Assembly: GCA_026645935.1 (NCBI GenBank)
Contig: JAPKMP010000008.1
Location: 62,001 to 126,000 of the forward strand
Source of the DNA: Candidatus Villigracilaceae bacterium
GTDB lineage: Bacteria; Chloroflexota; Anaerolineae; Anaerolineales; Villigracilaceae
DNA length: 64,000 bases
Direction: 5' to 3'
In this document: positions 21,696-38,794 of the stretch, in pieces
Layout: each line of letters starts with the position of its first letter
How positions within the stretch are numbered: the first letter of the stretch is position 1
Made by a program: the position numbers and the translations under genes
Notes under the pieces: generated by a model
The model's database searches: none
What the model was told of the DNA's origin: nothing
Seen by the model: the letters and a program-made list of their open reading frames with translations, nothing else

Positions 21696-21799
21696 GGTGC
21701 AGATTCAACTTGAATGTGCAACCCTTAAGGTTACCAATGGGTAAACTGGGAATAGGGTTATGCTCCTTCAAGAACCAAGTCTAAGGCGCATATGGAGTA

Positions 21800-22040
21800 T
21801 GACGAGGACCTTTCACCACCTTACTCAGGTCCAACGATACCAGGTTTACGCATTATAAAAGACCCAACAAATTATGACTGGAACATAAAAGTGATTGGTG
21901 TTCACAAGTCGAGTGTCAGTGGTGAACTGAAGCGCAATAGAGGTCATCGTGGTTATCGTGCGCAATAAGCTCATAAAGTAGCAGCCAACTGCAAACACAG
22001 AGCGTTTCCCGGGGTCAGCAACGACTCGGATGTCTCAAGG
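21800..22040 (+). pseudogene. IS30-family transposase remnant (N-terminal part)
   Basis: Reading across stops and one frame shift gives FHHLTQVQRYQVYAL, then VIGVHKSSVSGELKRNRG and HRGYRAQ. These match the conserved helix-turn-helix start of IS30 transposases (LT..QR..I..L, the GVHKSTISREL helix, and the RNRG-RGYR tail). Three or more stop codons and the lost middle and C-terminal DDE region make it non-functional. No clear terminal inverted repeats are visible. Confidence 0.75.
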
Positions 22041-22429
22041 TATTGACTTCTTCGTCGGGCTTAAACTTTTGTTATGTTCGGTATTGTTTTCCGTCATAAT
22101 AAGCCAAGTAGCAATAGCCTGTTTCTGTTTCACTCGTACGGCTGAACTTCAAACACCTTTCATAATACACTAAAGGCCGCCCGGTCCAGTTTCGACCGAT
22201 CAAACGGAACATCCCATGTCCAATGCGGTTCGATTCGATGCGCCGGGAGATAATGCGGAACAGTAATAGAAATACCGAATTTGTCCACCAGGTTAAGCAA
22301 CTCAAATCTCCATCAGAGTTATCTCCCATTCGGAATGATTAAGTTCCCAGCTTTTTCAATCCATGTTGTAGAGTCCATGTTTTTTCAAGGACCCCGGCTA
22401 TCCACTAAAGAGTTTACGTTCATTGGCAG
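22041..22429. other. Gene-poor stretch after the IS30 remnant
   Basis: About 390 bases without a supported gene. An 85-codon minus-strand frame (22072-22329) has no recognisable domain or good start and probably arises by chance. The DNA may be further decayed mobile-element sequence. Confidence 0.35.
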
Positions 22430-23641
22430 TTATGCACGCTTTTGACCGGTTATTTCTTTATAAAGTTGCATATGCCCTTGTGCAATCATATCCCAATCAT
22501 AACTGTTGACGGCTAGGGCGCGGGCCTGGCGGGTTATTTGGAGCCATTTTTGTTTGTCTTTCAGAAGCGTGAGGACACGGCCGGCGAAGAGTTCAGGTGT
22601 ATCAGCAATAAAAAGGTGTTCCCCATTCTTAACAGCGAGTCCTTCGCAGCCAACGGTCGTGGTGACTACCGGGCGGCCTAACGCCATGGCTTCGAGAATC
22701 TTGAGGCGAGTGCCACCCCCTGCCCGTAATGGAATTACGCAAATCACGCTGTCCCTGTAATAAGGAATTAGATCTTCCACTTGACCTGTAACATGGATTC
22801 CGCCACCTTCAAGTCCTGTCACCTCCGGGCTGGGATCTCTGCCCACAATCCAAAACTCGATATTTGGATCCTCCATTTTGATTTTCGGGTAAATGTCCCT
22901 GCAAAAGTATGTTACCGCATCGATATTGGGACGATACCCCATTGTACCTACAAAAAGCAGCCTGAATGTTTTATCGGGAAAAGGCAGCGGGGTGTAAGAT
23001 TGGGTATCTACACCGTTGGGTAAAACAGTGATCTTCAAGGAAGGGTTGACGTTCAGCAAGAGAGCTTCATCGGAATGGGACATGGCAATACAACGTCCGA
23101 ACCGTTGGGCTTGACGGGGTTCCCAGCGCCGCATCAGGCGTCCATGGAGCCATAAACGCATCCTGCGAGCACGTTTCGGTTCCACCCGGCTTAATCTTTC
23201 ATGCTTGTGAAAGTTCACATCGTGAAAGGTCAGGATTGCCCTCGAACGAAGGGATTTGGGCAGATAATCCAAATAAATACTCATATGCGAGTCTTCAATC
23301 TGAATGATGTCAAATTCAACCCGGGAAATCAATGCAAGTATTTTATCAACAAGCTCCTTGGACTCATACGCCCGCAAATCGGGAGGGGCGCCTCTAATAA
23401 AATACCGCATCGCTTTCCACGGATTCTCAAGCGCCCCCTGATTATAAGAAGGCACAACAATTACTTCCCTGCAAATTGAATAAAGATGATCCAAATCAGT
23501 CAGCTTTTCATATTCGGGAATAAATGTGACAAGCCATACATCATGCTCCTTCGCAATCCGATAAAGGAGGTTATATACACGCAAACGGAATCCGGAATTT
23601 GGCGGGTATGGAACATTGGTGGAGAGAAGCAAAATACGCAT
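22430..23641 (-). CDS. Glycosyltransferase family 4 (GT-B)
   Basis: 403-residue GT-B glycosyltransferase. The N-terminus MRILLLSTNVPYPPNSG is the usual first strand and loop, and IQIEDSHM and LTFHDVNFHKHERL lie in the acceptor half. The donor half has LFVGTMGYRPNIDAV, and GGGTRLKILEAMALGRPV is the conserved motif with the catalytic-site glutamate. Relatives occur in exopolysaccharide and PEP-CTERM-linked clusters. It is the last gene of the minus-strand export operon that starts at 30430. Confidence 0.85.
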   Translation of the reverse strand: MRILLLSTNVPYPPNSGFRLRVYNLLYRIAKEHDVWLVTFIPEYEKLTDLDHLYSICREVIVVPSYNQGALENPWKAMRYFIRGAPPDLRAYESKELVDKILALISRVEFDIIQIEDSHMSIYLDYLPKSLRSRAILTFHDVNFHKHERLSRVEPKRARRMRLWLHGRLMRRWEPRQAQRFGRCIAMSHSDEALLLNVNPSLKITVLPNGVDTQSYTPLPFPDKTFRLLFVGTMGYRPNIDAVTYFCRDIYPKIKMEDPNIEFWIVGRDPSPEVTGLEGGGIHVTGQVEDLIPYYRDSVICVIPLRAGGGTRLKILEAMALGRPVVTTTVGCEGLAVKNGEHLFIADTPELFAGRVLTLLKDKQKWLQITRQARALAVNSYDWDMIAQGHMQLYKEITGQKRA

Positions 23642-23825
23642 GAATTCCAATGACTACTTTCACATAGAAGTGAAATCCGTAACAATCCAACTACATTGAG
23701 AAGTCCTCTTTCGGAGCCGAAATATCAAAACTGTCATCCCAAGTAGGGTTTTCGAAATTCGACACCATACTCGAACCGATGAAACCTAATCGGCATTCGT
23801 GTATATTGAATCTTTGATCCTTCCC

Positions 23826-25316
23826 TTACCGGACTTTTAGCGCACCGGGAAGTTTGCCTCGGAGTTTTGACCAAAGTATAGACACTTCACCATAGAGAAT
23901 CGTCATATCCCGAGACGTAATCACAGATAGAATAAAACTCATGGGGATGTAGAGAAGCAACAAAAAAACTGCTGACAGAATGGCGCCTGGATTCCACAAT
24001 AGAAATGAGGTAAAAAGCAAACCAAAAACAAAGAGTAGCTTTATAGAGGCGATAAGGTTTGGAGAGATGCCTTTCCTTCTTAAGAAAAATATGTTAACAG
24101 GCAAGGCGATGAGGTTTCCAGAAACATAAATGATCGCTGCGCCGATATACCCTAAAATCGGAAGGATGGTTAGGTTTCCAACAAGGCTGATAATCGACCT
24201 CATTATGCTTATATACAGGGGTTTGTCCGGTTCTCCGATGGCAACCAGGGAGTATCCGAGAGTATTTTCAACCATCTCCAGAGTTAGTCCGATCATTAAC
24301 AAAACCAATGCCCAGTAACTTGCGAGGTATTCTTCTGAAAAGAGAAGGACAATAATATTTTTTCCGAAGAACGCAATTATTAATGCAGCGAATGCTGCCA
24401 GGAATGTGATCAAACGGATTGAATTGTTAAGGAGATAATCTGTTTTTTCCTTTTTTTCAGTGGCATGGATGTTGGCGCTGAGAGGAAAATAAACCGAGAT
24501 GAACACGGAGTACAATTGCATCAGGCTGTCGGGAATTTTTTTGGCAATATCATAAAATGCAACCCCGCGAGCACCCAGGATCGAACCAACAATCAGGGTA
24601 TCTAGTCTGGAAATTGCAAAACCGAAAATAAACTGCACTTGCAATGGGAATCCAAATTTCAACATTTCTTTCAAAAGCGCGACATTAAACTCCCATCTAT
24701 GTTCGAAACGAATGGCGCGAAAAGCCAGAAAACTAAAGAAAGCCTGTGAGGCGACCTTGGCCATGATCAACCCCCAAAATCCAAGCCGATATACAACGAC
24801 AAAAAGAATCAACAGAACAAGTTCAACCACTTCCGAGATAAACTCGATCAGCCCAATCGCCCTAAACTCGAATCTTCCACGCAAAATAGATTCGAATAAC
24901 TGGGTGAAACTGAGCACCAAAAACACCAATGGTGTTGCCTTGAATATGTCCGTTGTTGATGCGCTATCAAGAAAACCTGCAATTAAGGGCTGAAAGGTTA
25001 CAATGGATATTCCTACCACAAGAACAACTATGACTCTGAAATGAAAGACGGTATTAATTAGCGTCGTTTTGTAGCTTTCCTCTTCGTTACTAGCTAAATA
25101 TTTTGGGATAACCAAGCCAAGACCAAAACTCAAAAAATGTGCGAGGAAATTGCTAAAGAGCATAACGAGCACATATATCCCATAAGCATCCGTTGTCAGG
25201 TAGCGTGTTGCGAGCATGACGCTGACGAGGCCAAGTACAATCGCGGATACCCGCGCACCGCCTATAAAAAAGGTACCGGAGAAAAAGTGTGAAATTATTG
25301 ACTTATTTGTCGACAT
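23826..25316 (-). CDS. Oligosaccharide flippase family protein (Wzx-like)
   Basis: 496-residue integral membrane protein with 12-14 hydrophobic segments, in the MATE/MVF-like polysaccharide-transport superfamily. The start of the chain (FFSGTFFIGGARVSAIVLGL, then TRYLTTDAYGIYVL) and the later RLDTLIVGSILGARGVAFYD segment are typical of Wzx-type flippases that move undecaprenyl-PP-linked repeats across the membrane. It lies between an O-antigen-ligase-like gene and a GT4 gene, as expected for a Wzx/Wzy-type pathway. Confidence 0.87.
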   Translation of the reverse strand: MSTNKSIISHFFSGTFFIGGARVSAIVLGLVSVMLATRYLTTDAYGIYVLVMLFSNFLAHFLSFGLGLVIPKYLASNEEESYKTTLINTVFHFRVIVVLVVGISIVTFQPLIAGFLDSASTTDIFKATPLVFLVLSFTQLFESILRGRFEFRAIGLIEFISEVVELVLLILFVVVYRLGFWGLIMAKVASQAFFSFLAFRAIRFEHRWEFNVALLKEMLKFGFPLQVQFIFGFAISRLDTLIVGSILGARGVAFYDIAKKIPDSLMQLYSVFISVYFPLSANIHATEKKEKTDYLLNNSIRLITFLAAFAALIIAFFGKNIIVLLFSEEYLASYWALVLLMIGLTLEMVENTLGYSLVAIGEPDKPLYISIMRSIISLVGNLTILPILGYIGAAIIYVSGNLIALPVNIFFLRRKGISPNLIASIKLLFVFGLLFTSFLLWNPGAILSAVFLLLLYIPMSFILSVITSRDMTILYGEVSILWSKLRGKLPGALKVR

Positions 25317-25338
25317 TAATATATTTATTCCCTAGCTG

Positions 25339-26799
25339 TTACACATCCGATTGCGAAATCGAGCGAATCGAAAGTTCGTTCAGTCCCATCAGTGTGGCTG
25401 TTATCGGGGTCCAATATCCTTCGGAGATCAACGGTTCCACCGAGTTGCCCATAAGCATTCCGACAATCGCCAGAGTGAAACCCAGCACATAAGCCTTATT
25501 GGGCGCGACGCGCCAATACTTAAAGCCTCTGAAAATTACTGTCATCATCATTCCCATCATCGCCAAGAAGCCGATCCCCCCCGTGCGCACCAGCAGCCAG
25601 TAAAACCCATTATGGATCCAACCTCTGCCATCAAAGCCACTCCAGTCCCTACCCGGAATAAAGGGTCGATATAAGGTACCCAGCCCTATTCCTATAAAAG
25701 GGTGTGAGACGAATTGGCGTGAAGCATAATAATTCTCGAAGTCTCTCCAACGCAAACTCGATTCTGGGTCTTCATAGGTTTCCTCACGGAACAGCGAAAA
25801 CATTCTATCAGCGGAGCTTGCTATCAGGTCGGGACCGGTAGAACCTGTGTAGTTCGAGACAAAATAGAGGACTACAAACATGACAGCAAATGCAGAGAAC
25901 CCTCTGATCAGGATACGTTGTATCTCCCTTCGATTGCTAACTAAAAGCATGATCAAAAAGATAACCACGAGCGCTGCCCATAGATGGCGTTTGAACGTGA
26001 GCAGGACGCCAATACCGGATAAAACCATGGAGATCGTCAGGATAAAGTTGCCCGAGTATTTATTATCAAAAAACCAAATGGAACAAGTTATCACAAAAAC
26101 GAAAAATACGGTCGGGTAACCCGGCGGAATAATTCGTGTGACCCCGGAAAAACTAGTCCCCTCAGTGTACAATACTTCAACACGCCCAGGAAGGAAAGGC
26201 AGGGCCGCACCAGTGAAATATTGAATCACCATAACAATTGAAACAACCCACGCAAATGCAATGACCATCCCATGCATCAGCCTTATTTGCCTATCGGTTT
26301 TAACAAGATTTGTAACTGCAAAGAAAAGCAGGAGATGAAGAATTTCTCGTGCCGGACCCAACATGCTATTCAAGGTGGCAGTTCCCCTTATCATTGCAAT
26401 GAATGTAGAAACAAGAGCAACCACAATAAAAACCAATAAGGGGATGTCCAGCGGGGTACGGACAAGTTTTGCCTCTAGGCGGGTTAACAACTCCCAGCCG
26501 ATCAAGAAGAACAGCGTAAACAATATGATGTCGGTTAGGTAAATATGCCCAATTCCTATGGATACCCCTGGATTTGCATCCGTAGCTATCAACGTCGATG
26601 TAAGCGCAATATAACCAAGAATCCCCCAGACCGGGTTTTTCAAAACGAGTTTCACCGATAGCACAATGGAAATAGCCAGAATAACAATACCCGGTGTAGA
26701 AAATACAATAGCCATGCCCAAGAGCAGACCGATAACAATCGAGATGCCTAGCATTAAGAAAATGTATCGAAATTGATCAGAAGGAGGGTTTGCAAGCAT
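25339..26799 (-). CDS. O-antigen ligase/polymerase family membrane protein (WaaL/Wzy-like)
   Basis: 486-residue polytopic protein with about 12 transmembrane segments. The large periplasmic loop near residues 330-410 ends in IGIGLGTLYRPF and WIHNGFYWLLVRTGGIGFLA, the H-N-x-x-x-x-L-x-x-G pattern of the Wzy_C domain. Such proteins either polymerise lipid-linked repeats or ligate the polymer to an acceptor, and sequence does not separate the two. No second Wzy candidate is seen in the window, so the polymerase role is likelier here. It sits directly upstream of the flippase on the minus strand. Confidence 0.85.
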   Translation of the reverse strand: MLANPPSDQFRYIFLMLGISIVIGLLLGMAIVFSTPGIVILAISIVLSVKLVLKNPVWGILGYIALTSTLIATDANPGVSIGIGHIYLTDIILFTLFFLIGWELLTRLEAKLVRTPLDIPLLVFIVVALVSTFIAMIRGTATLNSMLGPAREILHLLLFFAVTNLVKTDRQIRLMHGMVIAFAWVVSIVMVIQYFTGAALPFLPGRVEVLYTEGTSFSGVTRIIPPGYPTVFFVFVITCSIWFFDNKYSGNFILTISMVLSGIGVLLTFKRHLWAALVVIFLIMLLVSNRREIQRILIRGFSAFAVMFVVLYFVSNYTGSTGPDLIASSADRMFSLFREETYEDPESSLRWRDFENYYASRQFVSHPFIGIGLGTLYRPFIPGRDWSGFDGRGWIHNGFYWLLVRTGGIGFLAMMGMMMTVIFRGFKYWRVAPNKAYVLGFTLAIVGMLMGNSVEPLISEGYWTPITATLMGLNELSIRSISQSDV

Positions 26800-26925
26800 A
26801 TTTATTCTACTCTCGGTAGTCGCACAATATTAAATCAATATATTGAAGATGTCGCCTGTGTGCATCGCAGCCGCTTGTGTCATTCGACCGAGTCATAAGA
26901 CCCTTTGATCGCGTTGAAGATATTC

Positions 26926-26959
26926 GGGGATTGCACCATTGCAGGATGGCGCAATCCCC
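26926..26959 (-). terminator. Stem-loop between the BcsB-like gene and the ligase/polymerase gene
   Basis: GGGGATTGCACCAT pairs with ATGGCGCAATCCCC (one G-T type mismatch) over a six-base loop, 27 bases after the stop of the BcsB-like gene. There is no T-run, so it could be a partial terminator or a processing/stability element inside the operon. Confidence 0.5.
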
Positions 26960-26986
26960 GCCATTACGATCAAGCTTGCATACATA

Positions 26987-29260
26987 CTACATGCGGGAGC
27001 GCTTCTGTAAAAACGATCTGATCGCCAGGATGACAATGATCAAAACGATAAGACCAATCCCGATCATCATCGCTGATGGTATCCAATCTCGATTGTGAGA
27101 TGGCGATGTATTTTGAGAATCCGGTTCAGGAGTCACATTTATGCTGACATCCGGTGTTTCTTCCGCCGAGGGGGGGATGCCTGAAATCGGGAATACTCGC
27201 GTATCAGAAGCCAAGATTTGGAGTCCATTGACAATTACGAAATTTCCAGAAATCTGGGAACGCAGGGCAGCATCGGTCATGGCCGCCACAGCCCAAATCT
27301 CACCTTGAGTGGAATTACCCAACAGCGCAATAATGACATTCTCGGGGTTCCAGGGCGAAACCATCAACTCGATATAACCTAAAGGCACATCCACCGGGAT
27401 ATCAAAGATCACCCTGAGATTGCCTTCAACGGCGCTGTCGCTGCCCGTCTCAAAAGGAACCGGCAGAACCCGACTAATCTCATCGACAACAGGCAATTGA
27501 CTCGGCCTGCCAATCAAAATTACATTGTAATCCTTGCGACGATCTTCAGGGAAATCATCTCCATAGAAAGCGGATAACGTGACAATTGGTGGGTTTGCTT
27601 CGGATGCCAGGTATGATGCGATTTTCACCGCACCACGCCAGCCTTCGAGATCATTCTCTGGCAAGACAAATGCCGTGCTGTTCAATTCAAAATCAAAGAT
27701 AAACGGCGCTGGGTAATCCGCCAAGTTAACCGCGGTGCTTATATCTGTCTGTTTTTGGATCAAAGGAACACTCAGCACCGAATCATCCCAAATGTTTATC
27801 CAAAAACCCCGAGTTTCGGGCGGGGTACAAACGTCCTCTGGGTATATGTATGCTTGAACTTCCAGCCGATTGACACCCGGTACGACGGCTGATTGCGGAA
27901 TATCTATCTTAACCTGGTTTATTGCGTTTTTGGCAGTTTCGGGATCGAATCGAACACTTCCGATCGGAACACCGTTCAACATCAAGATAATTCCTGACTG
28001 ATCGAAATCCATCAAAGCTGAATGACCATAAGCAAGCTGAAAATAAGCGTTATCTGAAACCGTCCAACCGAGCGGGACCTGGAATCCATAAGTTTCCACA
28101 TTAAAACCCCTGAACGTGAACATTCTGTTCGCATATCCCATACTGGAAAGGGTTCGTGTTTCGGAAGTGGAAGCAGTCAGCAGGGTTGCTTGAGGCGGTT
28201 TGACATCCTCGACAACAGCCAGGTTCATGAAACGATGAGGGAGAATAATACCCGTACTTAGTGCCTGGGCAGCCTTGATCACACCCGCGTCAGAATTCCC
28301 CGACACGATAACAACAACACTGGAAACATTCCACGGCGAATTGATCACCTGGATCACGCCCGCATCTGCGACCCCGGCTAAAACTTGGAACTTATCGCCA
28401 GTCGGAGGAGCAGGCAAGCCCAGGTTTTCCAGGATAGTGAAGGCAGACGGCTTGCCAACCAGGATCAAATGATTCGATGCTTGTTGTTCCGGTGTCAATG
28501 CGCTCACCGTCGTTGCATCGATCGGCAAATCATTTCCACTGATATTACCCAGCCCCCCTGCCACAGTTAATGCAGCCTGTAATTCAGCCGCTGAAGGTTG
28601 ATTTGGAAGCACGATCAGGGCAGATTCTTGCACGAAGGTACCTTGATACAATATCTTTGGAAGGTCGACGATATCTGGCGAAGGTGCAACAATACGATGT
28701 GGCAGGGAAAAATATGATGTTGGATGTATCAGCAAGCTGAAATCCTGATCGACATAACAAAAGTCACCAGCATCAAGCTCCGCATAAAACGCCATGCGCC
28801 CATCGGAAAGATTGGACGTAAAGGCCCCTAAAGGGATCTGTAAAACCGCTTGGACATTGCCGTTTTCATTCAGATTCAGGACACCGAGTACTATATCATT
28901 AAAGTAAATGGTCAAAGTGCCGCCTCCGGCCGCCAACGGATATCCAAACTCGGATGAGAAAATCCTGTTCTGGCTGACCGTCATATCCAAGTGGAGTTCC
29001 GCACCAGTCGATAACTCCCATGAATTTGGAATTGCGAAAGTAAAATAGGCTGAATCAAAGGGTCCTGAAAGAGGAATATCACCTTCCTGAAAGATCCTGA
29101 AGGGCACCTCGGTTGCATCCATACTGATCACATCCTCGGTAGGCGTCACCTGAACCAAGGGGGACTCCAACCTTTGAGCGTCAACTGAGATGAACTGGCT
29201 AAACAACAAACCTGAAGACAAAATCACCAATAATGTAAGTCTTGTTAACTTCTTACTCAT
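26987..29260 (-). CDS. BcsB-like cellulose synthase regulatory-subunit family protein
   Basis: 757 residues matching the BcsB family. There is a signal peptide (about residues 1-28), two repeats of a carbohydrate-binding-like domain plus a ferredoxin-like domain (FTFAIPNSWEL near 70 and FQVPLGWTVSDNAYFQLAY near 395), a proline/serine-rich linker, and one C-terminal transmembrane helix (about 727-750) with a basic tail. BcsB normally sits in the periplasm, contacts the catalytic subunit BcsA and guides the glucan out. No BcsA-like synthase is present in the window, so it may serve the polymer made here or a synthase coded elsewhere. It is 36 bp downstream of the Wzz-GGDEF gene. Confidence 0.8.
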   Translation of the reverse strand: MSKKLTRLTLLVILSSGLLFSQFISVDAQRLESPLVQVTPTEDVISMDATEVPFRIFQEGDIPLSGPFDSAYFTFAIPNSWELSTGAELHLDMTVSQNRIFSSEFGYPLAAGGGTLTIYFNDIVLGVLNLNENGNVQAVLQIPLGAFTSNLSDGRMAFYAELDAGDFCYVDQDFSLLIHPTSYFSLPHRIVAPSPDIVDLPKILYQGTFVQESALIVLPNQPSAAELQAALTVAGGLGNISGNDLPIDATTVSALTPEQQASNHLILVGKPSAFTILENLGLPAPPTGDKFQVLAGVADAGVIQVINSPWNVSSVVVIVSGNSDAGVIKAAQALSTGIILPHRFMNLAVVEDVKPPQATLLTASTSETRTLSSMGYANRMFTFRGFNVETYGFQVPLGWTVSDNAYFQLAYGHSALMDFDQSGIILMLNGVPIGSVRFDPETAKNAINQVKIDIPQSAVVPGVNRLEVQAYIYPEDVCTPPETRGFWINIWDDSVLSVPLIQKQTDISTAVNLADYPAPFIFDFELNSTAFVLPENDLEGWRGAVKIASYLASEANPPIVTLSAFYGDDFPEDRRKDYNVILIGRPSQLPVVDEISRVLPVPFETGSDSAVEGNLRVIFDIPVDVPLGYIELMVSPWNPENVIIALLGNSTQGEIWAVAAMTDAALRSQISGNFVIVNGLQILASDTRVFPISGIPPSAEETPDVSINVTPEPDSQNTSPSHNRDWIPSAMMIGIGLIVLIIVILAIRSFLQKRSRM

Positions 29261-29296
29261 GGTTTCTCCTTGTATATATCAAATGCCACGTGCTAC

Positions 29297-30430
29297 CTAT
29301 TTCTGCACCTCAGTATTCCAAAATGGGTTTTTTATTTCCCACACGTAGACGGGGGCTGCTTTGTCTTTGCGCGCATTTTCCAGAGCCCCAACAGCTTTCT
29401 CCAATAATTCCTCAGGAGTAATGTTTAAACTATACTCAGCACCACCGATATAAGGTCTAAGGTCAATTGACAAATCCAAGTGCCGTAAAATTACCGGGAA
29501 GGAAAGCATTGTAGATATGCGATTGAATATCCCTTTGGCCGCAGGTCCCGGCGTTTTGGGAAGAATGACAAGAAAGCTGTTGTTGCTCCAACGCCCAATA
29601 ATATCGTGGCCCCGCAGTTCATTTTGTAGCGTAGTTGTGACCTGTCTTAAGATATTCTGATACCCGGCTGTTGGAAGGGTGTCTTCAAGATCAATCAACC
29701 CCCCCAGCTCTATAACCCCTGCAGACAAAACACCCTCTGGGTTTTGCGTCAGTTCATCTTCCAAAATCTTTTTAATGGTGCGGTGGTTATACACACCTGT
29801 AATGGGATCAACCTGGAAGCGGCGACGATACGCGTCAAATGAGGTCATTAGTTGATCCCGAACGATGGCCAACACGCCGCCAAGCAACAAACCTATACCA
29901 AAGGCTAAAACCGAATCGCGGATCGGCTGCGGACTCTCGGGTACATCCGGGGGACGCGCCTCATCCAAAAAGTCGAAGCGATAAAAATCATTCAAAAGCG
30001 ATGTAAATATTATTGCTTGATTCCCAATGGAATTTGCCAACTCAGCGGTAATTTCAGGGTTTGGTCCAGTTACGCTCAATTCGATGACACTGGAGTTTGG
30101 AAGCACTTGAACTTCATAGGCATAATCTTCCATTTCTTTCTGGGTACGACCGATATTATTCAGAGCATCCAGGTAGATTCGATCACTTTTCATTACCTCC
30201 ATATATGTGGTAATCACCGTTTGGTTACCTAATATATCCAATCCCCACAATCCCAAATCGGGACTGCCGGGTAAAACATTTTTTGGATTAAGGATAAAAC
30301 GCGCCACCGCCTTATATTGTGGAGTAACAACATAGGAAGCACCAAGCGCCGCCACCACAGCTACCAATGCTGTCAGCAAGATCACCCACCAACCACGTTT
30401 CAACATCTGTAAATACAAGCGAATTTCCAT
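29297..30430 (-). CDS. Wzz-type chain-length protein fused to a degenerate GGDEF domain
   Basis: 377 residues with an unusual fusion. Residues 1-195 are a Wzz/Wzc N-terminal domain: basic start, transmembrane helix at about 14-36, periplasmic part, a proline-rich segment (PPDVPESPQP), and a second helix at about 170-191. Residues 205-355 are a cytoplasmic GGDEF-like domain beginning DPITGVYNHR. The active-site GGDEF position reads SNNSF (282-286), so cyclase activity is very unlikely. The I-site RxxD is kept as RGHD (273-276), so c-di-GMP could still bind. The usual BY-kinase domain is absent. AGGAGG lies eight bases before the ATG. It is the first gene of the export operon (Wzz-GGDEF, BcsB-like, ligase/polymerase, flippase, GT4). 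Confidence 0.85.
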   Translation of the reverse strand: MEIRLYLQMLKRGWWVILLTALVAVVAALGASYVVTPQYKAVARFILNPKNVLPGSPDLGLWGLDILGNQTVITTYMEVMKSDRIYLDALNNIGRTQKEMEDYAYEVQVLPNSSVIELSVTGPNPEITAELANSIGNQAIIFTSLLNDFYRFDFLDEARPPDVPESPQPIRDSVLAFGIGLLLGGVLAIVRDQLMTSFDAYRRRFQVDPITGVYNHRTIKKILEDELTQNPEGVLSAGVIELGGLIDLEDTLPTAGYQNILRQVTTTLQNELRGHDIIGRWSNNSFLVILPKTPGPAAKGIFNRISTMLSFPVILRHLDLSIDLRPYIGGAEYSLNITPEELLEKAVGALENARKDKAAPVYVWEIKNPFWNTEVQK

Positions 30431-30677
30431 AACGAGAACCTCCTAGACCAGTTTTCGATTTCAATCCGGACAGGATTTATAAGTAAAGAAGACAACCCTG
30501 GCAGATTTCTCATTCAGGGTGTTTTCCTCCAGACCAAAGTTGAACCAACTCATGATAAGGATAACCAACCGGGTGGTACTGACAATCTTCCTTAGTATGT
30601 ATGGAAGCATCCATGCGTCCAGCTAAGCCACTTGACTCTACCATAATTTAGTCCTTTTCTGGAAGCTGTTATAAAAT

Positions 30678-31400
30678 TTAAAATAGATTAGCAATGGTAT
30701 CGATGCAGGTTTGTAAATTGGCAAAAGTCAGAAAGTGAAGGCTGCAAATGGATTCAGGTAACCTTTCGAAATCATGAGCCAATCGGCAAAAACGAGCTAC
30801 CCACCCAAAACTACAATCGCCAAACCATCGTCTGGATAGAAAATCAAATTCTTTCATGAATTCTGGTATTTTTGCAACAACCAAGTCAATCCCGGCTGCC
30901 CGATCATCTTGTTTGAATCCATCACCTATGTTGTCTTTATCACCATGAGAAATTTTGAGCTGAGTCTTGCGTTGCTAACTGTATGACGTCTGCCAATTCC
31001 TTCATGGGTGCGCGTTGTTGATCGTTTTCCGGCGTGGCATGTGCAGCCAGCAATAATACATTTGCGTCTACCGCAAGAAGGAATTTGTTGCATTTTCGCT
31101 ACTTGCGGGAGTGGATTGGGAGGTGCGGCCATCGAGGATCGCTGCCTGAAGCAGCTCATTCTTACCTATTGCTGATCGGATCAAATTTCGTAAGCCATGA
31201 ATCATGGCCAATACATCAGCCTCAATCCAAAGAGATGAACTTGTTGATAGATGGCGTACCTGGCTGGTAAGTCATGGGCGCACTGCCAAGAATCTATTCT
31301 CTTCAAAATCAAAAGGAGCAATAAATGCCCATCCTTAACCATTACACGGAACATGCTTCTGTTAACATTTGTCGAGACTATTTGCGCCCATCCGCCGAGA
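30678..31400 (-). pseudogene. IS5-family transposase remnant
   Basis: Minus-strand fragments in shifting frames match an IS5-group transposase in the right order: CAHDLPARYAIYQQ (the CQWR-LP-DFPPW-TVY region), AAILDGRTSQSTP (the AAILDSRTVQSTPE region), LAAHATPENDQQRA (the DTLG-LLA-HVTPAN-QDR region), and RRWFGDCSFGWVARFCRL followed by AHDFERLPES (the [25 protein letters not shown] C-terminus). At least four frame shifts or stops break it. The catalytic E of the C-terminal ERTF motif reads D (GDCS). No terminal repeats are identified. Confidence 0.8.
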
Positions 31401-31424
31401 GTGTGGTCGCATTTTCAGGTTATT

Positions 31425-31883
31425 GGGTTCAACGGCATTAGTGTTGATGGTGCGGTGACAGGCAGGGCTAGCAAGGCAGCGATCGCCTGCTGTTGAGTTT
31501 TGAAGACATTTCCGTCTTATTTGGCATGGATAAGGAGTAAAACTCAAAATCTGCGAATGTTGGAGTGCCTCAAACCCTCAGCCTTTGCGCCAAGTTCGGG
31601 ATCGGCGATATTGGGCAGGGCAGAAAAAAAAGTCTTGATTGTATCTACACGAAATATTGATGGCGATGAAAGCTGCGGCACTCATACCTACGTTTCCGGT
31701 CCGGACAATGATGCCGAAAAGAAATTGCAGATTGCACACAAGCATTGGGCAATTGAAAATAAGTTACGTTTAGCGCTGGATGTGGAATCGAACGAAGATC
31801 GAGGCGGTGTTCGGAAATATCAGAAGCCTGAATATCCCTCTGCCTGGAGACAGATTGCGCACAATTTATTCAGCCAGGAATAA
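31425..31883 (+). pseudogene. ISAs1-family transposase remnant
   Basis: Plus-strand fragments match an ISAs1 transposase: NGISVDGAVTGRASKAAIA (the core aspartate segment, normally IAIDGKTLRGS-D---KAAIH), then after an internal deletion HKHWAIENKLRLALDV, SNEDRGGVRKYQKPE and RQIAHNLFSQE (the C-terminal HW-IEN-LHWVLDV---ED-S-IR block). It lies back to back with the IS5 remnant. The frame from 31500 is open, but the DNA-binding part and the middle are missing. Confidence 0.75.
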
Positions 31884-32157
31884 ACTTTCAGCGGCGGTAC
31901 CCACGCCAAACCAACCCAAGCTGCCCGAAATGGCCAAGTCCGTCTCAATTTCGTCGCCATGGTAAATGAGATTCAATTATCTTGTTCCAACTTTTTCATA
32001 ATGGCTTGACAAGACCGTTTTTTTGCACGTGGATTCGACGAAAGGCACGGAATCCTTCATAAAAAAGACAGAAATTCCATCCGATCCGTGAAATCCGTGT
32101 ACCCAAACTTTTAATTTTTGTTTCTTGGGAAAGCCATGATTACTTTGTTTGTGCTAA
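31884..32157. other. Spacer between the ISAs1 remnant and the response-regulator promoter
   Basis: About 270 bases with no gene or clear repeat. The region 30431-30677 on the other side of the IS remnants is likewise empty apart from the ribosome binding site of the Wzz-GGDEF gene. Confidence 0.3.
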
Positions 32158-32186
32158 TTGTAAGGTATTCTGGTTTGTGTTATTAT
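32158..32186 (+). promoter_or_regulatory. Promoter of the response-regulator gene
   Basis: TTGTAA, a 17-base spacer and TATTAT. Initiation would fall near 32193, downstream of an in-frame TTG at 32118, which rules that start out and supports the TTG at 32226 with GGGAG eight bases ahead. Confidence 0.5.
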
Positions 32187-32225
32187 TCTGGCGCAGAGTT
32201 ATACTATTTCTCTGGGAGAAATCTT

Positions 32226-32933
32226 TTGGGAAAAATCATTTTATTGATCGATGACGATCAGGATGTAGGGCGGCTGGTGGAAGTCATCCTCAGTCCCATG
32301 GGTTTTACAGTCTATCAGGCATTTACCGGGTTGGATGGGTTGCGAAGATCGTACGAACTTCATCCCGACCTTGTGATTCTGGATGTCATGATGCCTGACC
32401 TGAACGGCTTCGATGTCTGTATCCGATTACGAGAAATGTCCAGTGTACCTATACTAATGTTGACTGCCTACTCCAATGAGAAGGAAATGTTGCGCGGTTT
32501 TAGCGTTGGAGTGGACGACTTTGTAAAAAAACCCTTCAATAAGAATGAGTTGGAAGCCCGAGTTCGGGCTTTGCTACGCCGATCCACCTCCCGCGAATCA
32601 TCATCTTCCCATCCATACATCCATGCTTACGAAGATCCGATTTTGGCGATTGATCTTTCGTTGCAAACCGTAAAAATCAAGGGCAAGGTTGTTGAATTGA
32701 CGCCCCGGGAATATAGCCTTTTAGCTTATTTGGTCCGCCAGCAGGGTAAAATTGTCTCGAAACGCGAATTAGCTAGGGAAGTTTGGGGCGATCAGACACC
32801 TTCAGGCATATCAAACACTTCACTTTATGTGTTCTACCTTCGTAAAAAAATACAGGATGGGGAACACGGGCATCGGTATATACAGACCCAATGGGGTCGC
32901 GGCTACTGGTTTGAACCGCGTGAAGAAAAGTAA
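32226..32933 (+). CDS. OmpR/PhoB-family response regulator
   Basis: 235-residue two-domain regulator. The receiver domain has the acidic pair in LIDDDQD (D9-D11), the phospho-acceptor aspartate D53 in LVILDVMMP, T80 in MLTAYS and K102 in VKKPF. The C-terminal winged helix carries LTPREYSLLAYLVRQQG and the recognition-region segment SNTSLYVFYLRKKI. No histidine kinase lies next to it, so it is an orphan in this window. It may control the glycan genes on either side, which is inferred from position only. The TTG start is chosen from the promoter and Shine-Dalgarno positions. Confidence 0.88.
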   Translation: MGKIILLIDDDQDVGRLVEVILSPMGFTVYQAFTGLDGLRRSYELHPDLVILDVMMPDLNGFDVCIRLREMSSVPILMLTAYSNEKEMLRGFSVGVDDFVKKPFNKNELEARVRALLRRSTSRESSSSHPYIHAYEDPILAIDLSLQTVKIKGKVVELTPREYSLLAYLVRQQGKIVSKRELAREVWGDQTPSGISNTSLYVFYLRKKIQDGEHGHRYIQTQWGRGYWFEPREEK

Positions 32934-33307
32934 AAGCTCGCAGGCGGGGTTAAACGAAAATCAAATAAAAATCAAAAACTTTTAAAAAATTTATCCACTA
33001 TTATTCTGAAAACCCTATGGTTGGCCGTAGTCCCTAATTAGGCAGGCAGCGCGTATTCAACCGCCACGTAGGCAGAAGTCAAGATAAAGCATGCTTATGC
33101 CTACCGCCGCGGAATCTCGTCAGGAAACCTCGAATACCTTTCCCAATCGCGGCACTGCCTTAGCGGAACAAGAACGCAAAATTATTAATTGTGGCTGGTA
33201 GCAGAAATCATCATGGTCGCGCAGCGTTCTTTCACTATAGCGCGATTCTTGCAATTCAGATGAATTTATTTCCAGGTTTACAGACAAGCAACTTGGGCTA
33301 ATCATCA
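32934..33307. other. Intergenic region before the sugar transferase
   Basis: 374 bases with no supported gene. The first part is AT-rich. A perfect palindrome AAGCATGCTT near 33090 could be a regulator site, but nothing links it to the response regulator. No strong terminator or promoter is visible. Confidence 0.3.
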
Positions 33308-34114
33308 ATGGAACCAAAGTATGTATTTTTTTCTAATCATGAGCTTGTCAAAAGGATAAATAGAATGCAGGATCAAATGGACTTAAAGCGAGTAAATGAG
33401 CCCGGTTTAAATTTGGCTGCGCTTCTACGTGAGGGATATGTCATTCACTATTTCGTCAAACGAACTTTTGATATTTTGATCGCCGGAAGTTTATTAATTT
33501 TCTTGCTGCCGGTCATGGGGGCGATAGCCCTCCTCATCTATTTATATTCCCCTGGTCCGATATTTTTCAAACAGGAACGGGTTGGAGCAAAGCGGGTTCG
33601 ACGTGGCAACGTCTTTTATTGGGAACGCGCAAATTTCATCCTGTACAAGTTTCGCACCATGAAGGTCAATGGAGATGAGTCTGTTCATCGGGCCTACGTG
33701 CAAGCTTTGATCCAGCATGATCATGATACAATCAGGGAGATCCAAGGAGAGAAATCACTGGTTCGAAAACTTATAAACGATCCGCGCATTTTCCTGCCGG
33801 GCAAGTACCTGAGAAAATTCAGCCTTGATGAGCTTCCCCAGCTTTGGAATGTGTTACGAGGTGATATGAGCATGATCGGACCCCGTCCGGCTCTACCCTA
33901 CGAAGTCGAGGTTTACAAACCCTGGCATTTACAACGATTGGAAGCCCAACCTGGAATTTCAGGGCTACAACAGGTTACTGCTCGCTGTACAGCAGATTTT
34001 GACGAACAGGTTAAACTTGATATTGAATATATTAAACAACCGTCGATCTGGCTGGATTTAAAAATCGCGCTGAAGACCCCTTTAATAATATTATCAACCA
34101 AAGGAGCAGGATAA
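33308..34114 (+). CDS. Undecaprenyl-phosphate sugar phosphotransferase (bacterial sugar transferase family)
   Basis: 268-residue monotopic phosphoglycosyl transferase. After an N-terminal region of about 45 residues there is one hydrophobic membrane hairpin (KRTFDILIAGSLLIFLLP). The catalytic domain follows, with SPGPIFFKQERVG, FRTMKVN, the Asp-Glu pair in FSLDELPQLWNVLRGD, and MSMIGPRPALP. This enzyme class starts a repeat by moving a sugar phosphate from a UDP-sugar onto undecaprenyl phosphate. It lacks the extra N-terminal domain of WbaP/WcaJ, so it is close to the PglC-type core. An internal ATG at 33365 has a better AAGGA site and could be the true start. Confidence 0.88.
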   Translation: MEPKYVFFSNHELVKRINRMQDQMDLKRVNEPGLNLAALLREGYVIHYFVKRTFDILIAGSLLIFLLPVMGAIALLIYLYSPGPIFFKQERVGAKRVRRGNVFYWERANFILYKFRTMKVNGDESVHRAYVQALIQHDHDTIREIQGEKSLVRKLINDPRIFLPGKYLRKFSLDELPQLWNVLRGDMSMIGPRPALPYEVEVYKPWHLQRLEAQPGISGLQQVTARCTADFDEQVKLDIEYIKQPSIWLDLKIALKTPLIILSTKGAG

Positions 34115-34138
34115 CATCGCAGTAAAGGAGAAAACGCT

Positions 34139-35188
34139 ATGAAGACTGTCAAGGTGGGCGTAATCGGTTTTGGATATTGGGGTCCAAATCTGGCTCGAAA
34201 TTTCTTCGATTTGCCCTCGGCAGAACTTGTTGCCATTGCCGATCTTAAGGAAGATCGTTTACAACGGGCTCGCTCCTTTTATCCGGAGGTTCGCACAACT
34301 ACGAATTATATGGATTTGTTCAATATGGATTTGGATGCGGTTGTCGTTTCCGTTCCTCCAGCTTTACATTATCCTATTGCAAAACATTGCCTGGAAAACG
34401 GTTTGCATGTGCTAATCGAAAAACCAATGACGCAAAGCAGTGAACATGCTGAAGAGTTGATCCGCAAGGCTGAATCCAAGGAATTGGTACTCATGGTCGG
34501 TCATACCTTTGTGTACAATTCTGCGGTTGTCGCGTTGAAAAAATTCATTGACAGCGGGGAACTTGGAGATATTTATTATATAGATACGGCCAGATTGAAT
34601 CTCGGGCTGTTTCAACGCGATTCGAACGTTCTTTGGGATCTCGCCCCGCACGACATATCCATATTGTTGTTTCTTCTTGGACAGGACCCTGTATCGATAA
34701 GTGCATATGGCGCACCGTGTGTGATTGATAATATTTTCGATGTCGCCTATTTAAATCTTATTTTTCCAAATCAGGTACCAGCCCATATCCATGTTTCATG
34801 GCTCGACCCCTGCAAAGTACGCCGGATTACTGTAGTTGGCAGTAAAAAGATGATCGTTTTCAATGATGTGGAGAATGAGCAAAAGCTCAAGATTTATGAT
34901 AAAGGTGTAGATGCCCCGGAGTATACCGATGGTTTCGGTGAATTTCACTGGAATTATCGATCGGGAGATATACTCATTCCAAAGATTCGGGTGTCCGAGC
35001 CATTGCGACAGGAATGTCATCATTTTCTCGACAGTATTATTAATAAGACCCGGCCAGAGAGCGATGGTCATAACGGGTTAAGGGTCGTAAAAATCATTGA
35101 GGCGGCAGAGAATTCACTACGAAACCAATCATCCAAGGAGATCTTTGCATGGGATACCCTGAATATGCCCGCATTGCGCCAGATGTGA
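34139..35188 (+). CDS. Gfo/Idh/MocA family oxidoreductase (WlbA/WbpB-like)
   Basis: 349-residue NAD-dependent oxidoreductase. The dinucleotide motif is [13 protein letters not shown], and the catalytic lysine lies in LIEKPMT near residue 98. The second half has [16 protein letters not shown], with the histidine that usually acts in catalysis. Followed by a hexapeptide acetyltransferase and a DegT aminotransferase, it fits the 3-dehydrogenase that oxidises UDP-GlcNAc-uronic acid at C-3 in the pathway to 2,3-diacetamido-2,3-dideoxy-glucuronic acid. AAAGGAG precedes the ATG. The last 40 bases overlap the next gene. Confidence 0.87.
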
Positions 35189-35622
35189 AACTTGGACGGG
35201 ATGTAAAAATATACGCTTTCGTCAATCTGTACGGCTGTGAAATTGACGATGAAAGCCGTGTCGGCGCGTTTGTTGAGATTCAAAAAGGGGTAAAAATTGG
35301 CAAGCGAGTGAAAGTTTCCAGCCATACCTTCATTTGTGAAGGTGTGACAGTCGAAGACGAGGTTTTTATCGGGCACGGCGTCATGTTTATCAACGATAAA
35401 TATCCCCACGCCACCACCGAGACGGGCGGGCTTCAAACGGAGGCCGATTGGGTCTGTATTCCTACTCGTATTCGAAAACGCGCTTCCATTGGGAGCAATG
35501 CAACCATCCTCTGCGGCGTAACTGTTGGGGAAGGAGCGCTGGTAGGGGCGGGGAGTGTCGTGACCCGGGATGTCCCTGCAGGGACAGTCGTCGCTGGAAA
35601 CCCCGCGCGTGTTATTAGATAA
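35149..35622 (+). CDS. Left-handed beta-helix N-acetyltransferase (WbpD-like)
   Basis: 157-residue acyltransferase made of hexapeptide repeats (for example [19 protein letters not shown] and [17 protein letters not shown]), ending in the typical [11 protein letters not shown]. The conserved histidine and the loop with [11 protein letters not shown] match WbpD/WlbB enzymes, which acetylate the 3-amino group of a UDP-2-acetamido-3-amino-uronic acid. The gene overlaps the preceding oxidoreductase by 40 bases; AAGGAG eight bases before the ATG supports this start. Confidence 0.87.
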
Positions 35623-35749
35623 AAATCCTGATTATCTTATCTGATTCTGTTTGATTTTTTTGGCAAAAGCCCGCATCCGACCGCGTTTTTTCAGCTTCCC
35701 AAAACCAAAGTGTAAGGCAATTATTTAAAAAACCATAAAGCGAGGAACG

Positions 35750-36877
35750 ATGAACACCATTCCATTGATAGACCTTTCCCTTCAGCATAAGCAACTCCGT
35801 AACGAAATCACCAGCACTGTCCAAGAAGTTATTGACAGGGGCGATTTTATTCTTGGGCAGGATGTTGCCAAGTTCGAGGAAGAGTTTGCCGAGTATTGCG
35901 GCGTTAAGTACGCCATTGGCGTGGATAACGGTCTTTCCGCCCTAGAACTTAGCCTTCGCGCATTTGGCATCGGACCGGGGCATGAAGTGATTTTGCCAGC
36001 GCATACTTTTACTGCAACCGCTGCCGCAGTCACCTTTGTCGGAGCAACACCTGTCTTTGTTGACGTCAATCTTGAAACATATACCATCGATGTTCATAAG
36101 ATCGAAGAAGCGATCACACCCCGCACAAAAGCCATTCTTCCCGTTCATCTTTACGGCCTTCCGGCAGATATGAATGTTGTGCTAGGAATTGCCGAAAAAT
36201 ACAACCTGGTTGTCGTCGAAGATGCTTGCCAGGCTCACGGCGCGATGTATAAAGGGCACCGCATTGGTGGGATCGGCAATGCCACTGGATTTAGTTTCTA
36301 TCCTACCAAAAACCTCGGTGCATGCGGCGATGCGGGGATCGTCACGACGAACGATGCGAATGCAGCTGAAAAGATTCGCGCACTACGAAATTGCGGGCAA
36401 CGCGTAAAAAATATCCATGAAGAACACCCGTTCAATCATCGCCTCGATAATCTCCAGGCTGCCATCCTGAGAATAAAGCTGAAGTATCTCGATCAATGGA
36501 TCGCGTCGCGGCGGAAACTTGCCGAAATCTACAACACGCTGTTCGCGGATACCAATTTGGAAAGACCGGTGGAACTACCCGGTTATCAACATGTTTACCA
36601 TCTCTATGTAATTCGTACGCAAAACAGGGATGCCATGCAGGCCGCCCTGAAGGAGCGCGGGATTGGCACTGCAATACATTATCCAACCCCGGTTCACCTT
36701 CAACCGTACTATTTGAAAGATGGTAAGCCCCAGTACTCCTGCCCTGTTTCGGAAAAACTGGTGGGTGAAATATTATCATTACCCATGTATCCCGAATTAA
36801 CAGAGGAACAGGTTTCTGTGGTTGCTTCTGAGATCAAATCTTTGGAAGCAAAGGCGCAGTATATGAATTTTCAGTGA
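35750..36877 (+). CDS. DegT/DnrJ/EryC1/StrS aminotransferase (WbpE-like)
   Basis: 375-residue PLP-dependent sugar aminotransferase. The N-terminus has IPLIDLSLQHKQL. The cofactor region has VEDACQAHGAMYKG, with the PLP-contacting aspartate, and the Schiff-base lysine lies in SFYPTKNLGACGD near residue 185. GVDNGLSALELSLRAFGIG and the C-terminal TAIHYPTPVHLQPYY are also typical. Next to the WbpB-like and WbpD-like genes it should install the 3-amino group of a UDP-2-acetamido-3-amino-uronic acid. The required UDP-GlcNAc 6-dehydrogenase is not in the window. Confidence 0.9.
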   Translation: MNTIPLIDLSLQHKQLRNEITSTVQEVIDRGDFILGQDVAKFEEEFAEYCGVKYAIGVDNGLSALELSLRAFGIGPGHEVILPAHTFTATAAAVTFVGATPVFVDVNLETYTIDVHKIEEAITPRTKAILPVHLYGLPADMNVVLGIAEKYNLVVVEDACQAHGAMYKGHRIGGIGNATGFSFYPTKNLGACGDAGIVTTNDANAAEKIRALRNCGQRVKNIHEEHPFNHRLDNLQAAILRIKLKYLDQWIASRRKLAEIYNTLFADTNLERPVELPGYQHVYHLYVIRTQNRDAMQAALKERGIGTAIHYPTPVHLQPYYLKDGKPQYSCPVSEKLVGEILSLPMYPELTEEQVSVVASEIKSLEAKAQYMNFQ

Positions 36878-37136
36878 AAAGTCGCACATCGCCACGAGTC
36901 AGCAATAACCGGCATGTTGTCCGCGACGTATAAAATAAGGAACAGCTGCCGAACTGAGAATCGATTTGATTAACATGGGCGGGGCATGGTATAAACCGAA
37001 GTTGCTCGTAACGATTTCATTATACGCCGGGCATTTTCAGGGATCTTACTTCCCTACAAAAATATTTTAGAAGTTTGAGCGTTCTTTAAATTGTTATTCT
37101 GGAAATAATAAATATCAACAAGTTTACAATAACAAT

Positions 37137-37170
37137 CACGGCTCGATTTTGAGTTGGTAATCGAGCCGTG
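37137..37170. terminator. Terminator-like stem-loop between convergent genes
   Basis: Perfect 12-bp inverted repeat (CACGGCTCGATT with AATCGAGCCGTG) around a ten-base loop. It lies between the convergent aminotransferase and ABC permease genes and could stop transcription from both sides. The rest of 36878-37202 is empty. Confidence 0.65.
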
Positions 37171-37202
37171 AGAGCTTTTAGGAGAGAGGGAAATGATAGC
37201 AG

Positions 37203-37988
37203 TTACGCCGATGCTCCGGAGTAATTCCTCAAGCCAAGCCTCCAGATGACCCTCGTAATGGTCGCCAAAACCGCCGTTAGGGCGAGGGCGCCAAGCCAGG
37301 ATTGGAGAGACAGGCGTCCAGTCAGGGCGGAGGCGGGTACGGTCACGGCGAAGGCGACAGGGACAAGAAAGGTCAAGCCGTATCTCAGCCAGTTTGGGTA
37401 GATATCCACGGGCCAGCGACCGGCGGCATAGAGACCTTCGAACAGGTTGGCAATCTCATGCACGCGCACAAACCAGAACGCGGCGGATGTGATGACAAGC
37501 CAGAAGCAATACACCATTATGGCGCCCATGACCAGCGTCGAGGTAAACCCAAGCGAAGACCAAAAATCCACGCGCCAGCCAAGCTGAGACATTGCGACGA
37601 TTAAAACGATCGTCCCGATGATGACGTCTGTGTTTTGCCAAAGGCGATACTCGCGCACACTTGCCAATAACTGCGCGTCGGCGGGTTTGGTCAGGATGTA
37701 ATCGAGAGTCCCTTCGCGAATTTCGTCCATGAGCCGTTCCATGTTCGGCTGGATCGCTGAGCGAATAATGCCGCCAGTGATGGTGAAAACGCCCATCACG
37801 GCAAGCAAATCCGCCTTGCCCCAGCCGCCGAGCTCATTGACCTGGTTGAAGACAAGGTTCAAGCCGATCAGGCCAGTGGCGAGCGCAATGAAGGTTTGGA
37901 GAATCTGGATATAGAGATTAGCGCGGTATTGGAATTCGTTCATGATCCCGATCCGCAGGTAGTTGAAAGCCAGTTTAAATCCCTGCAT
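37203..37988 (-). CDS. ABC-2 family transporter permease (second subunit)
   Basis: 261-residue membrane protein with six hydrophobic segments, of the ABC-2 permease group related to DUF990. The conserved cytoplasmic segment MDEIREGTLDYILTKPADAQ lies near residue 85, and NLFEGLYAAGRWPVDIYP near residue 180. The upstream extension of the open frame overlaps the previous gene and lacks family similarity; GGGAGG four bases before the ATG at 37988 fixes the start. With the adjacent permease and the ATPase it forms a heteromeric exporter of unknown cargo. Confidence 0.85.
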   Translation of the reverse strand: MQGFKLAFNYLRIGIMNEFQYRANLYIQILQTFIALATGLIGLNLVFNQVNELGGWGKADLLAVMGVFTITGGIIRSAIQPNMERLMDEIREGTLDYILTKPADAQLLASVREYRLWQNTDVIIGTIVLIVAMSQLGWRVDFWSSLGFTSTLVMGAIMVYCFWLVITSAAFWFVRVHEIANLFEGLYAAGRWPVDIYPNWLRYGLTFLVPVAFAVTVPASALTGRLSLQSWLGALALTAVLATITRVIWRLGLRNYSGASA

Positions 37989-37990
37989 GA

Positions 37991-38794
37991 TTAACCTCCC
38001 ACCGCCGAAAAGCGGCGAATGGCGATCTTCCAAATCTGACTGACGAAAACCGCGCCAAAGAAAACCCATACGAACTGCATTCCCAAGCCGATGAACAAGT
38101 CGTTGACAGACATGTTCCCCACCAGCACTTCGATGGGATAGCCAAACGCCCAGCGGAACGGAAAGAACCACGCCGCCCTCTGCACCCAATCAGGCATGAG
38201 CGAAAGAGGCACGAGGCGGCCGGAGAGGATCAGCTCCGCGGCAAAATACAACTCGAACAAGGCGCTGACGCGCGTCGTCCAAAATGTGACCATGCCGAGC
38301 AGCGACAAGGTGACGGTGCGAATCAGGTACGCCATCCATATCGCTACAAAAAATATCACGCCGTCGAGGAGGGTCGGATTCAGGTCCGGCTTGAAAATGA
38401 GCGAAAGCACGAGCGCCAGGGGAATCCACAGGATGATCATGACAACCTTCCAACCGGCAAAGAACGCAACATCTTCATGCAAGGGATGCATCGGACGAAG
38501 AAGCGACATCGAAAGCCTTCCCTGGCGGATGCGCCATTCCCAACCGTAGGGCGTAAAGGCGATGTTCATCTGGCGCACGAGCGTCCATACGATGTAATAA
38601 GCGGCAAGCGAGCCGGGAGTATACCCACCCACCGACCCCCCCTGCTGTTCGGCGACCGCAGACCAAACCACCATGTAGATGACCGGTTCGGCAAGCATGC
38701 CGATCATATAAAAATAATTGGCGATGGGATACTGCCACTGCTCGAGGACCGAAACCCTCATCATGGACGTGTAAAAATCGAAATAGCGTTTCAT
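37991..38794 (-). CDS. ABC-2 family transporter permease (first subunit)
   Basis: 267-residue permease of the same group as its downstream neighbour. The first hydrophobic segment is followed by YYIVWTLVRQMNIAFTPYGWEWRIRQGRLSM, and RPMHPLHEDVAFF matches the coupling-helix region seen in the partner as LTKPADAQ. Six transmembrane segments are visible. Its ATG overlaps the ATPase stop codon by four bases, and its stop lies two bases before the start of the second permease, so the three genes are translationally coupled. Confidence 0.85.
   Translation of the reverse strand: MKRYFDFYTSMMRVSVLEQWQYPIANYFYMIGMLAEPVIYMVVWSAVAEQQGGSVGGYTPGSLAAYYIVWTLVRQMNIAFTPYGWEWRIRQGRLSMSLLRPMHPLHEDVAFFAGWKVVMIILWIPLALVLSLIFKPDLNPTLLDGVIFFVAIWMAYLIRTVTLSLLGMVTFWTTRVSALFELYFAAELILSGRLVPLSLMPDWVQRAAWFFPFRWAFGYPIEVLVGNMSVNDLFIGLGMQFVWVFFGAVFVSQIWKIAIRRFSAVGG

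Follow-up and report, generated by a model that had tools for sequence, protein, structure and literature searches.

In Wzc, phosphorylation of the BY-kinase domain drives the co-polymerase cycle, switching polymerisation or export. Wzc-type BY-kinase co-polymerases are laid out like the protein described here, with a Wzz domain, two transmembrane (TM) helices and a cytoplasmic regulatory domain in the same place, but their regulatory domain is a P-loop tyrosine kinase, whereas ours is a degenerate GGDEF domain (pseudo-GGDEF). Alg44, the co-polymerase of the alginate system, is not a Wzz. It is under c-di-GMP control and in that respect comparable to our protein, but the control runs through a PilZ domain (PMC8461298).

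Besides Alg44, several exopolysaccharide receptors for c-di-GMP that use a degenerate GGDEF domain are known, namely PelD, PssE, YdaK and BcsE. PelD of P. aeruginosa and B. cereus resembles our protein in being membrane-anchored and degenerate, in its RxxD motif and third arginine and in its exopolysaccharide locus, and it exerts post-translational control of exopolysaccharide (PMC8461298, PMC7112168). It differs in having four predicted TM helices and a GAF domain and in belonging to the Pel system (PMC8461298), whereas the anchor of the fusion is a Wzz co-polymerase. YdaK and PssE are nearer to the fusion in layout. YdaK, encoded in the EPS operon of B. subtilis, has four TM helices and a degenerate GGDEF domain with an I-site, and needs R202 (PMC7064775). 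In PssE of L. monocytogenes, likewise encoded in an EPS operon, the degenerate GGDEF motif reads DKDDA, the RxxD of the I-site stands five residues before it, and c-di-GMP is bound with a Kd of 0.79 uM (PMC4125290). Both differ from the fusion in being stand-alone receptors with no co-polymerase attached. BcsE of the cellulose system also binds c-di-GMP at the I-site of a degenerate GGDEF domain (PMC8461298).

Direct post-translational control by c-di-GMP is described for the cellulose, alginate, Pel and PNAG machines (PMC8461298), and the word Wzx has no occurrence in the text of that review. No Wzz-GGDEF fusion was found among the matches listed in the open-access literature searched, within the parts of those papers that were available. 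PMC5532660 and PMC3584217 have, in those parts, separate GGDEF proteins or mentions together with an ordinary Wzz kinase and no fusion, and the available part of PMC4443731 likewise yielded none. A receptor of this kind fused to Wzz would be new, as far as the open-access literature searched shows.

Layout of the fusion protein and its family

The gene lies in the window, by which we mean the whole stretch of 64,000 nucleotides that was analysed. The gene and the parts of its product are as follows.

29297..30430, minus strand: Wzz/degenerate-GGDEF fusion gene, 377 aa, ATG start
30161..30415, minus strand: Wzz domain PF02706, residues 6-90 (Pfam match and fold match of the model)
30329..30385, minus strand: TM helix 1, residues 16-34 (hydropathy)
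29861..29917, minus strand: TM helix 2, residues 172-190, preceded by a proline-rich stretch (hydropathy)
29360..29812, minus strand: degenerate GGDEF domain PF00990, residues 207-357 (Pfam, alignment, model)
29603..29614, minus strand: I-site RGHD, residues 273-276 (sequence and alignment)
29573..29587, minus strand: SNNSF in the GG[DE]EF position, residues 282-286 (sequence and alignment)
29519..29521, minus strand: R304, at a spacing near that of the third c-di-GMP-binding arginine of B. cereus PelD, R395

Both halves are recognised well above their Pfam cut-offs (PF02706, 43.2 bits against 25.5, E 5.1e-11; PF00990, 50.9 bits against 23.8, E 1.9e-13). The best NCBIfam match on the Wzz side is the CpsC-type TIGR01006, at 56.9 bits and below its cut-off of 296, and the Pfam scan found no BY-kinase domain in the protein. 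Arg and Lys residues flank the outer sides of both TM segments, so the C-terminal GGDEF-type domain is predicted to be cytoplasmic. The preliminary description, made from the DNA letters, had proposed a two-helix Wzz domain joined to a cytoplasmic GGDEF-like domain, with SNNSF in place of GGDEF and an RGHD motif at the correct distance from it. The Pfam matches, the two TM helices and the predicted side of the membrane agree with this, and RGHD lies five residues before SNNSF.

Structure models point the same way. Residues 190-372 modelled alone, with four alignment rows, gave a pLDDT of 85.9 and a pTM of 0.82. This model fits PleD with bound c-di-GMP (Z 24.4, rmsd 3.5, 180 residues aligned), and many other GGDEF domains match it too; PelD was absent among the best 50 structural matches listed, which excludes nothing. 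RGHD corresponds to model residues 84-87, in a turn that joins helix 65-82 to strand 88-93, its exposure being judged from this secondary structure alone. The full-length model, with three alignment rows, has a fair Wzz half and a poor GGDEF half (mean pLDDT 57.1). In the Wzz half, block means of pLDDT are 62-94, except at residues 1-10 (53) and 51-70 (41-42). Residues 1-196 fit Wzc 7nhr (Z 14.8, rmsd 4.0, 172 aligned), and the Wzc, KpsE and WzzE structures fit with Z from 14.8 to about 10.

The preliminary description had also likened the domain to PelD. The likeness holds for a dead active site beside a kept I-site and for the mechanism considered below; it fails for the GAF domain of PelD, for which the fusion has no room, the Pfam scan finding none and only 16 residues separating TM helix 2 from the GGDEF match. 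The PelD family PF16963 was not listed for the fusion at E up to 1, and HMMER misses B. cereus PelD as well (PMC7112168).

The combination of PF02706 with PF00990, for which a fusion search had been suggested, recurs in Chloroflexota genomes, where we collected 56 full-length fusions. Searched with the single protein at 1e-20, a genus and order sample of 41 genomes gave matches in 20, the window's own genome included. Two records of the GTDB collection also matched, labelled as Anaerolinea thermophila and Anaerolineae metagenome assemblies, and the assignment to Chloroflexota is based on these two. A 22-member profile found matches at 1e-25 in 42 of the 395 genomes that represent the class, several of them through the Wzz half alone, and at 1e-20 in 76 of 400 genomes of the phylum; by coordinates, the phylum set held 20 full-length fusions, eight of them outside the class, the other matches being halves. 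The 56 fusions comprise 48 from sampled loci, the window's own among them, and 8 from the phylum set, and they are not independent: six of these eight are near-identical and two genomes contribute two copies each. Together with six loci that have an unfused Wzz, four of which (L114-L117) were Wzz-only loci among the half-length matches, they make up 62 loci. Given the Pfam E-values and the same layout in 56 proteins, the fusion architecture is beyond chance.

Active site and I-site across the family

The intact GG[DE]EF motif occurs in 0/56 aligned fusions. Its first Gly is present in 6, its second Gly in 7, the fourth-position Glu (column 285) in 1 and the Phe in 51. The I-site is kept in most: R273 is found in 51/56 (Pro in 4 and His in 1 of the others), D276 in 56/56, R280 in 52/56 and R304 in 41/56, so that R304 is absent in 15. 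When the 160 columns of the domain are ranked by entropy, D276 comes 1st, D208 2nd, R280 3rd, R273 4th, F286 5th and R304 36th. Columns 241, 249, 258 and 282-285 (metal, base and other motif residues) rank from 68 to 152; we take them to be catalytic from an alignment with cyclases of the same genome and from the known residues of PleD. Retention of the I-site over 56 sequences against this drift of the active site favours a function for the I-site, and across so many relatives it suggests that c-di-GMP may control slime production directly.

The columns of R273 and D276 coincide in the alignment with R206 and D209 of DgcR, the residues of the I-site double mutant of PDB 6ZXB/6ZXC (PMC8041772). 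In B. cereus PelD, R363, D366 and R395 are each required for c-di-GMP binding (PMC7112168). The corresponding spacings are 3 and 31 in the fusion (R273, D276, R304) and 3 and 32 in that PelD. No arginine of a secondary I-site was identified in the fusion.

The five losses of R273 fall at two places on the tree. One is the L102-L105 clade, in which Pro replaces the arginine of the fused I-site and an adjoining second receptor retains RxxD. Beside this clade, with moderate support, sits L114, where the fused domain has been lost.

The exopolysaccharide locus, kinases and a second pseudo-GGDEF protein

The fusion gene stands among genes of a Wzx/Wzy-type pathway, and two further genes are divergent from it.

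26987..29260, minus strand: BcsB-like protein PF03170, 757 aa, hydrophobic segments 8-26 and 729-747; next downstream gene, 36 bp gap
25339..26799, minus strand: Wzy-type polymerase/ligase PF04932 (Pfam)
23826..25316, minus strand: Wzx-type flippase PF13440, PF01943 (Pfam)
22430..23650, minus strand: GT4-type glycosyltransferase (Pfam)
32118..32933, plus strand: OmpR-type response regulator, divergent from the fusion gene
33308..34114, plus strand: polyprenyl-phosphate sugar transferase PF02397 (Pfam), divergent from the fusion gene

Sugar transferases of the PF02397 family have the initiating role in Wzx/Wzy pathways. Clustering of ORFs in 48 loci placed a PF02397 protein in 28, a BcsB-like protein in 28, a Wzy-like in 26, a Wzx-like in 24 and a second pseudo-GGDEF protein in 20, and profiles run on the 62 loci found BcsB in 37; all these are lower bounds, since many loci stop short at a contig end or at the limit of the stretch taken. 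The midpoint of the BcsB-like gene lies within about 2 kb downstream of the fusion in 15 of the 48. The neighbour recalls cellulose systems, which have BcsB, but the window's genome has no BcsA over the cut-off (best 110.8 against 699 bits), and its BcsB-like protein sits in a Wzx/Wzy-type locus. Between the divergent genes, about 1.7 kb (30431-32117) hold a single ORF of at least 100 aa (127 aa, 31500-31883) and have no Rfam match; from 20000 to 38000, no riboswitch or other RNA was found (0 Rfam matches at E up to 1).

The preliminary description had the pseudo-GGDEF domain standing in for the usual tyrosine kinase. This holds for the window's own genome and locus, where none of seven BY-kinase-like matches passes the family cut-off (TIGR01007/Wzc; best 49.3 against 108 bits) and the fusion protein alone matches PF02706 at E up to 0.001. 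It does not extend to all other carriers: in 37 fusion genomes searched at E up to 1e-20, a BY-kinase turned up in 26 and none in 11, which rules out genome-wide replacement as a general rule. Among 45 carriers of the fused or unfused form, a kinase reaches 1e-20 in 34 and passes the cut-off in 31. These counts cover the carriers other than G013, G014, G058, G150, G218, G234 and G424, eight fusion genomes of the phylum set and two records of the GTDB collection. By their coordinates, a kinase and a fusion share a contig in G021 only, 1.3 Mb apart. With BY-kinases elsewhere in 26/37 fusion genomes, the kinase is replaced within the locus but not in every case throughout the genome; as far as tested, kinases and pseudo-GGDEF co-polymerases often share a genome but not a locus.

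A second pseudo-GGDEF membrane protein, YdaK-like in layout, was found in 35 of the 62 loci, which is a lower bound for the same reason as above, and often adjoins the PF02397 sugar transferase. In the example at L028:6570-7448 (plus strand), N-terminal hydrophobic segments are followed by a GGDEF-like domain (PF00990, 30.8 bits). RxxD is present in 30 of the 35 proteins and GG[DE]EF in none, the nearest being NGDEI in one. The window's genome lacks this protein, its single match (E 6.7e-5) falling on an ordinary cyclase. In the unfused-Wzz locus L116, the genes for this second protein and for the sugar transferase enclose one for a small protein with an apparent receiver and a TM helix (L116:8242-8898, minus strand).

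The two I-sites can be compared in the 31 fused loci that have both proteins. Both are kept in 22, only that of the fusion in 5, only that of the second protein in 4, and neither in 0/31. Mutual exclusion of the losses is suggestive only and not significant (Fisher p = 1). Where no second protein was found among the 56 fused loci, the I-site of the fusion is kept in 24 and lost in 1 (L100, HxxD). Of the six loci with an unfused Wzz, four have a second protein with RxxD; in the other two, both on short contigs, none was found.

A probable receptor within the co-polymerase and alternative readings

We consider it probable, though some way from certain, that the fusion is a c-di-GMP receptor built into a co-polymerase at the place where relatives have a tyrosine kinase. 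The protein would be a CpsC-like Wzz co-polymerase of a Wzx/Wzy-type exopolysaccharide pathway, its cytoplasmic end serving as the receptor; co-polymerases of this kind help determine how long exported sugar polymers grow. Having lost catalysis, the domain would use R273, D276 and R304 to hold c-di-GMP, which would probably sit there as an intercalated dimer. Binding at a domain that follows TM helix 2 could alter the packing of co-polymerase subunits or the choice of partner, for which Wzy, BcsB and a diguanylate cyclase are candidates, and the change would switch polymerisation or export in place of phosphorylation of a Wzc BY-kinase. By analogy with PelD, PssE and YdaK, c-di-GMP would activate and not inhibit. 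In DgcR, two GGDEF domains are bridged by dimeric c-di-GMP, which connects RxxD on one with the secondary site on the other (PMC8041772). Cross-links of c-di-GMP might tie neighbouring subunits together in the co-polymerase ring and so replace the Wzc phosphorylation cycle.

Next in standing, although we think it unlikely, is that the pseudo-GGDEF domain is a protein dock whose RxxD surface pairs with a partner, either an active diguanylate cyclase or the second pseudo-GGDEF protein, the role of c-di-GMP being secondary or local. The 31 loci in which both pseudo-GGDEF proteins occur fit such pairing, and the contact between YdaK and DgcK of B. subtilis requires the I-site residue R202 (PMC7064775). 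The same residue is needed for the response of YdaK to c-di-GMP, however (PMC7064775), so docking is not a clean alternative to a receptor, and the window's genome has no second pseudo-GGDEF protein to offer as a partner.

Less probable again, and in our judgement rather doubtful, is a structural remnant, a domain that merely oligomerises or stabilises the co-polymerase and whose I-site persists for folding or by inheritance. The GGDEF domains of the window's genome lend this some weight. Its 20 matches include the fusion itself and one slightly below the Pfam cut-off. RxxD is aligned in 11 of the 12 domains with GG[DE]E[FL], in all three SGDEF/TGDEF domains and in two (L136 and L137) of the four other degenerate domains (L134-L137), these two retaining it with no known link to EPS. 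RxxD being the norm in these cyclases, part of its retention in the fusions is inheritance; the ancestor carried an I-site, and retention alone is not rare. Conservation of D276, R280 and F286 extends to this genome's ordinary GGDEF domains and may reflect a structural role. In a tree built from the Wzz half, moreover, the unfused Wzz rows nest among the fused ones, with five changes of which at least three are forced by supported branches. This suggests repeated loss of the GGDEF-type domain, some of the placements being on long branches, and the domain is thus dispensable in some lineages. Against a remnant stand the persistence of R273 in 51/56 fusions while every catalytic column drifts, the RxxD retained by the second protein in L102-L105, where the fusion has lost R273, and the second proteins with RxxD in four of the six unfused-Wzz loci.

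The idea of a surviving cyclase, or of an enzyme whose unusual active site yields some other nucleotide, deserves hardly any credence: some GGDEF variants such as AGDEF are active (PMC3974145), but columns 241, 249, 258 and 282-285 are unconserved, Glu stands at 285 in 1/56, and the lack of GG[DE]EF in all 56 fusions led us to reject an active cyclase.

If the reading as a receptor fused to Wzz is true, it brings Wzx/Wzy pathways under direct c-di-GMP control, and the role of the cytoplasmic domain in co-polymerases becomes testable by swapping regulatory inputs. A wider proposal, which we offer tentatively and with less confidence than the receptor itself, is that in Chloroflexota c-di-GMP would supplant the tyrosine phosphorylation that cycles Wzz, with two exchangeable pseudo-GGDEF receptors, the Wzz fusion and the YdaK-like protein, of which at least one I-site is obligatory, and with Wzx/Wzy coupled to BcsB without a cellulose synthase. 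The receptor reading also bears on matrix making by filamentous Chloroflexi. The available part of PMC9942424, in which Wzz, c-di-GMP and GGDEF have no occurrence, discusses a role of these organisms in building sludge flocs and granules.

The messenger itself could be made by the 12 GGDEF domains with GG[DE]E[FL] in the window's genome. One of the degenerate domains of that genome, L136:1027-2016 on contig C39, belongs to a protein with an apparent receiver followed by a degenerate GGDEF domain that retains RPTD and has no GG[DE]EF; it is a further candidate c-di-GMP receptor.
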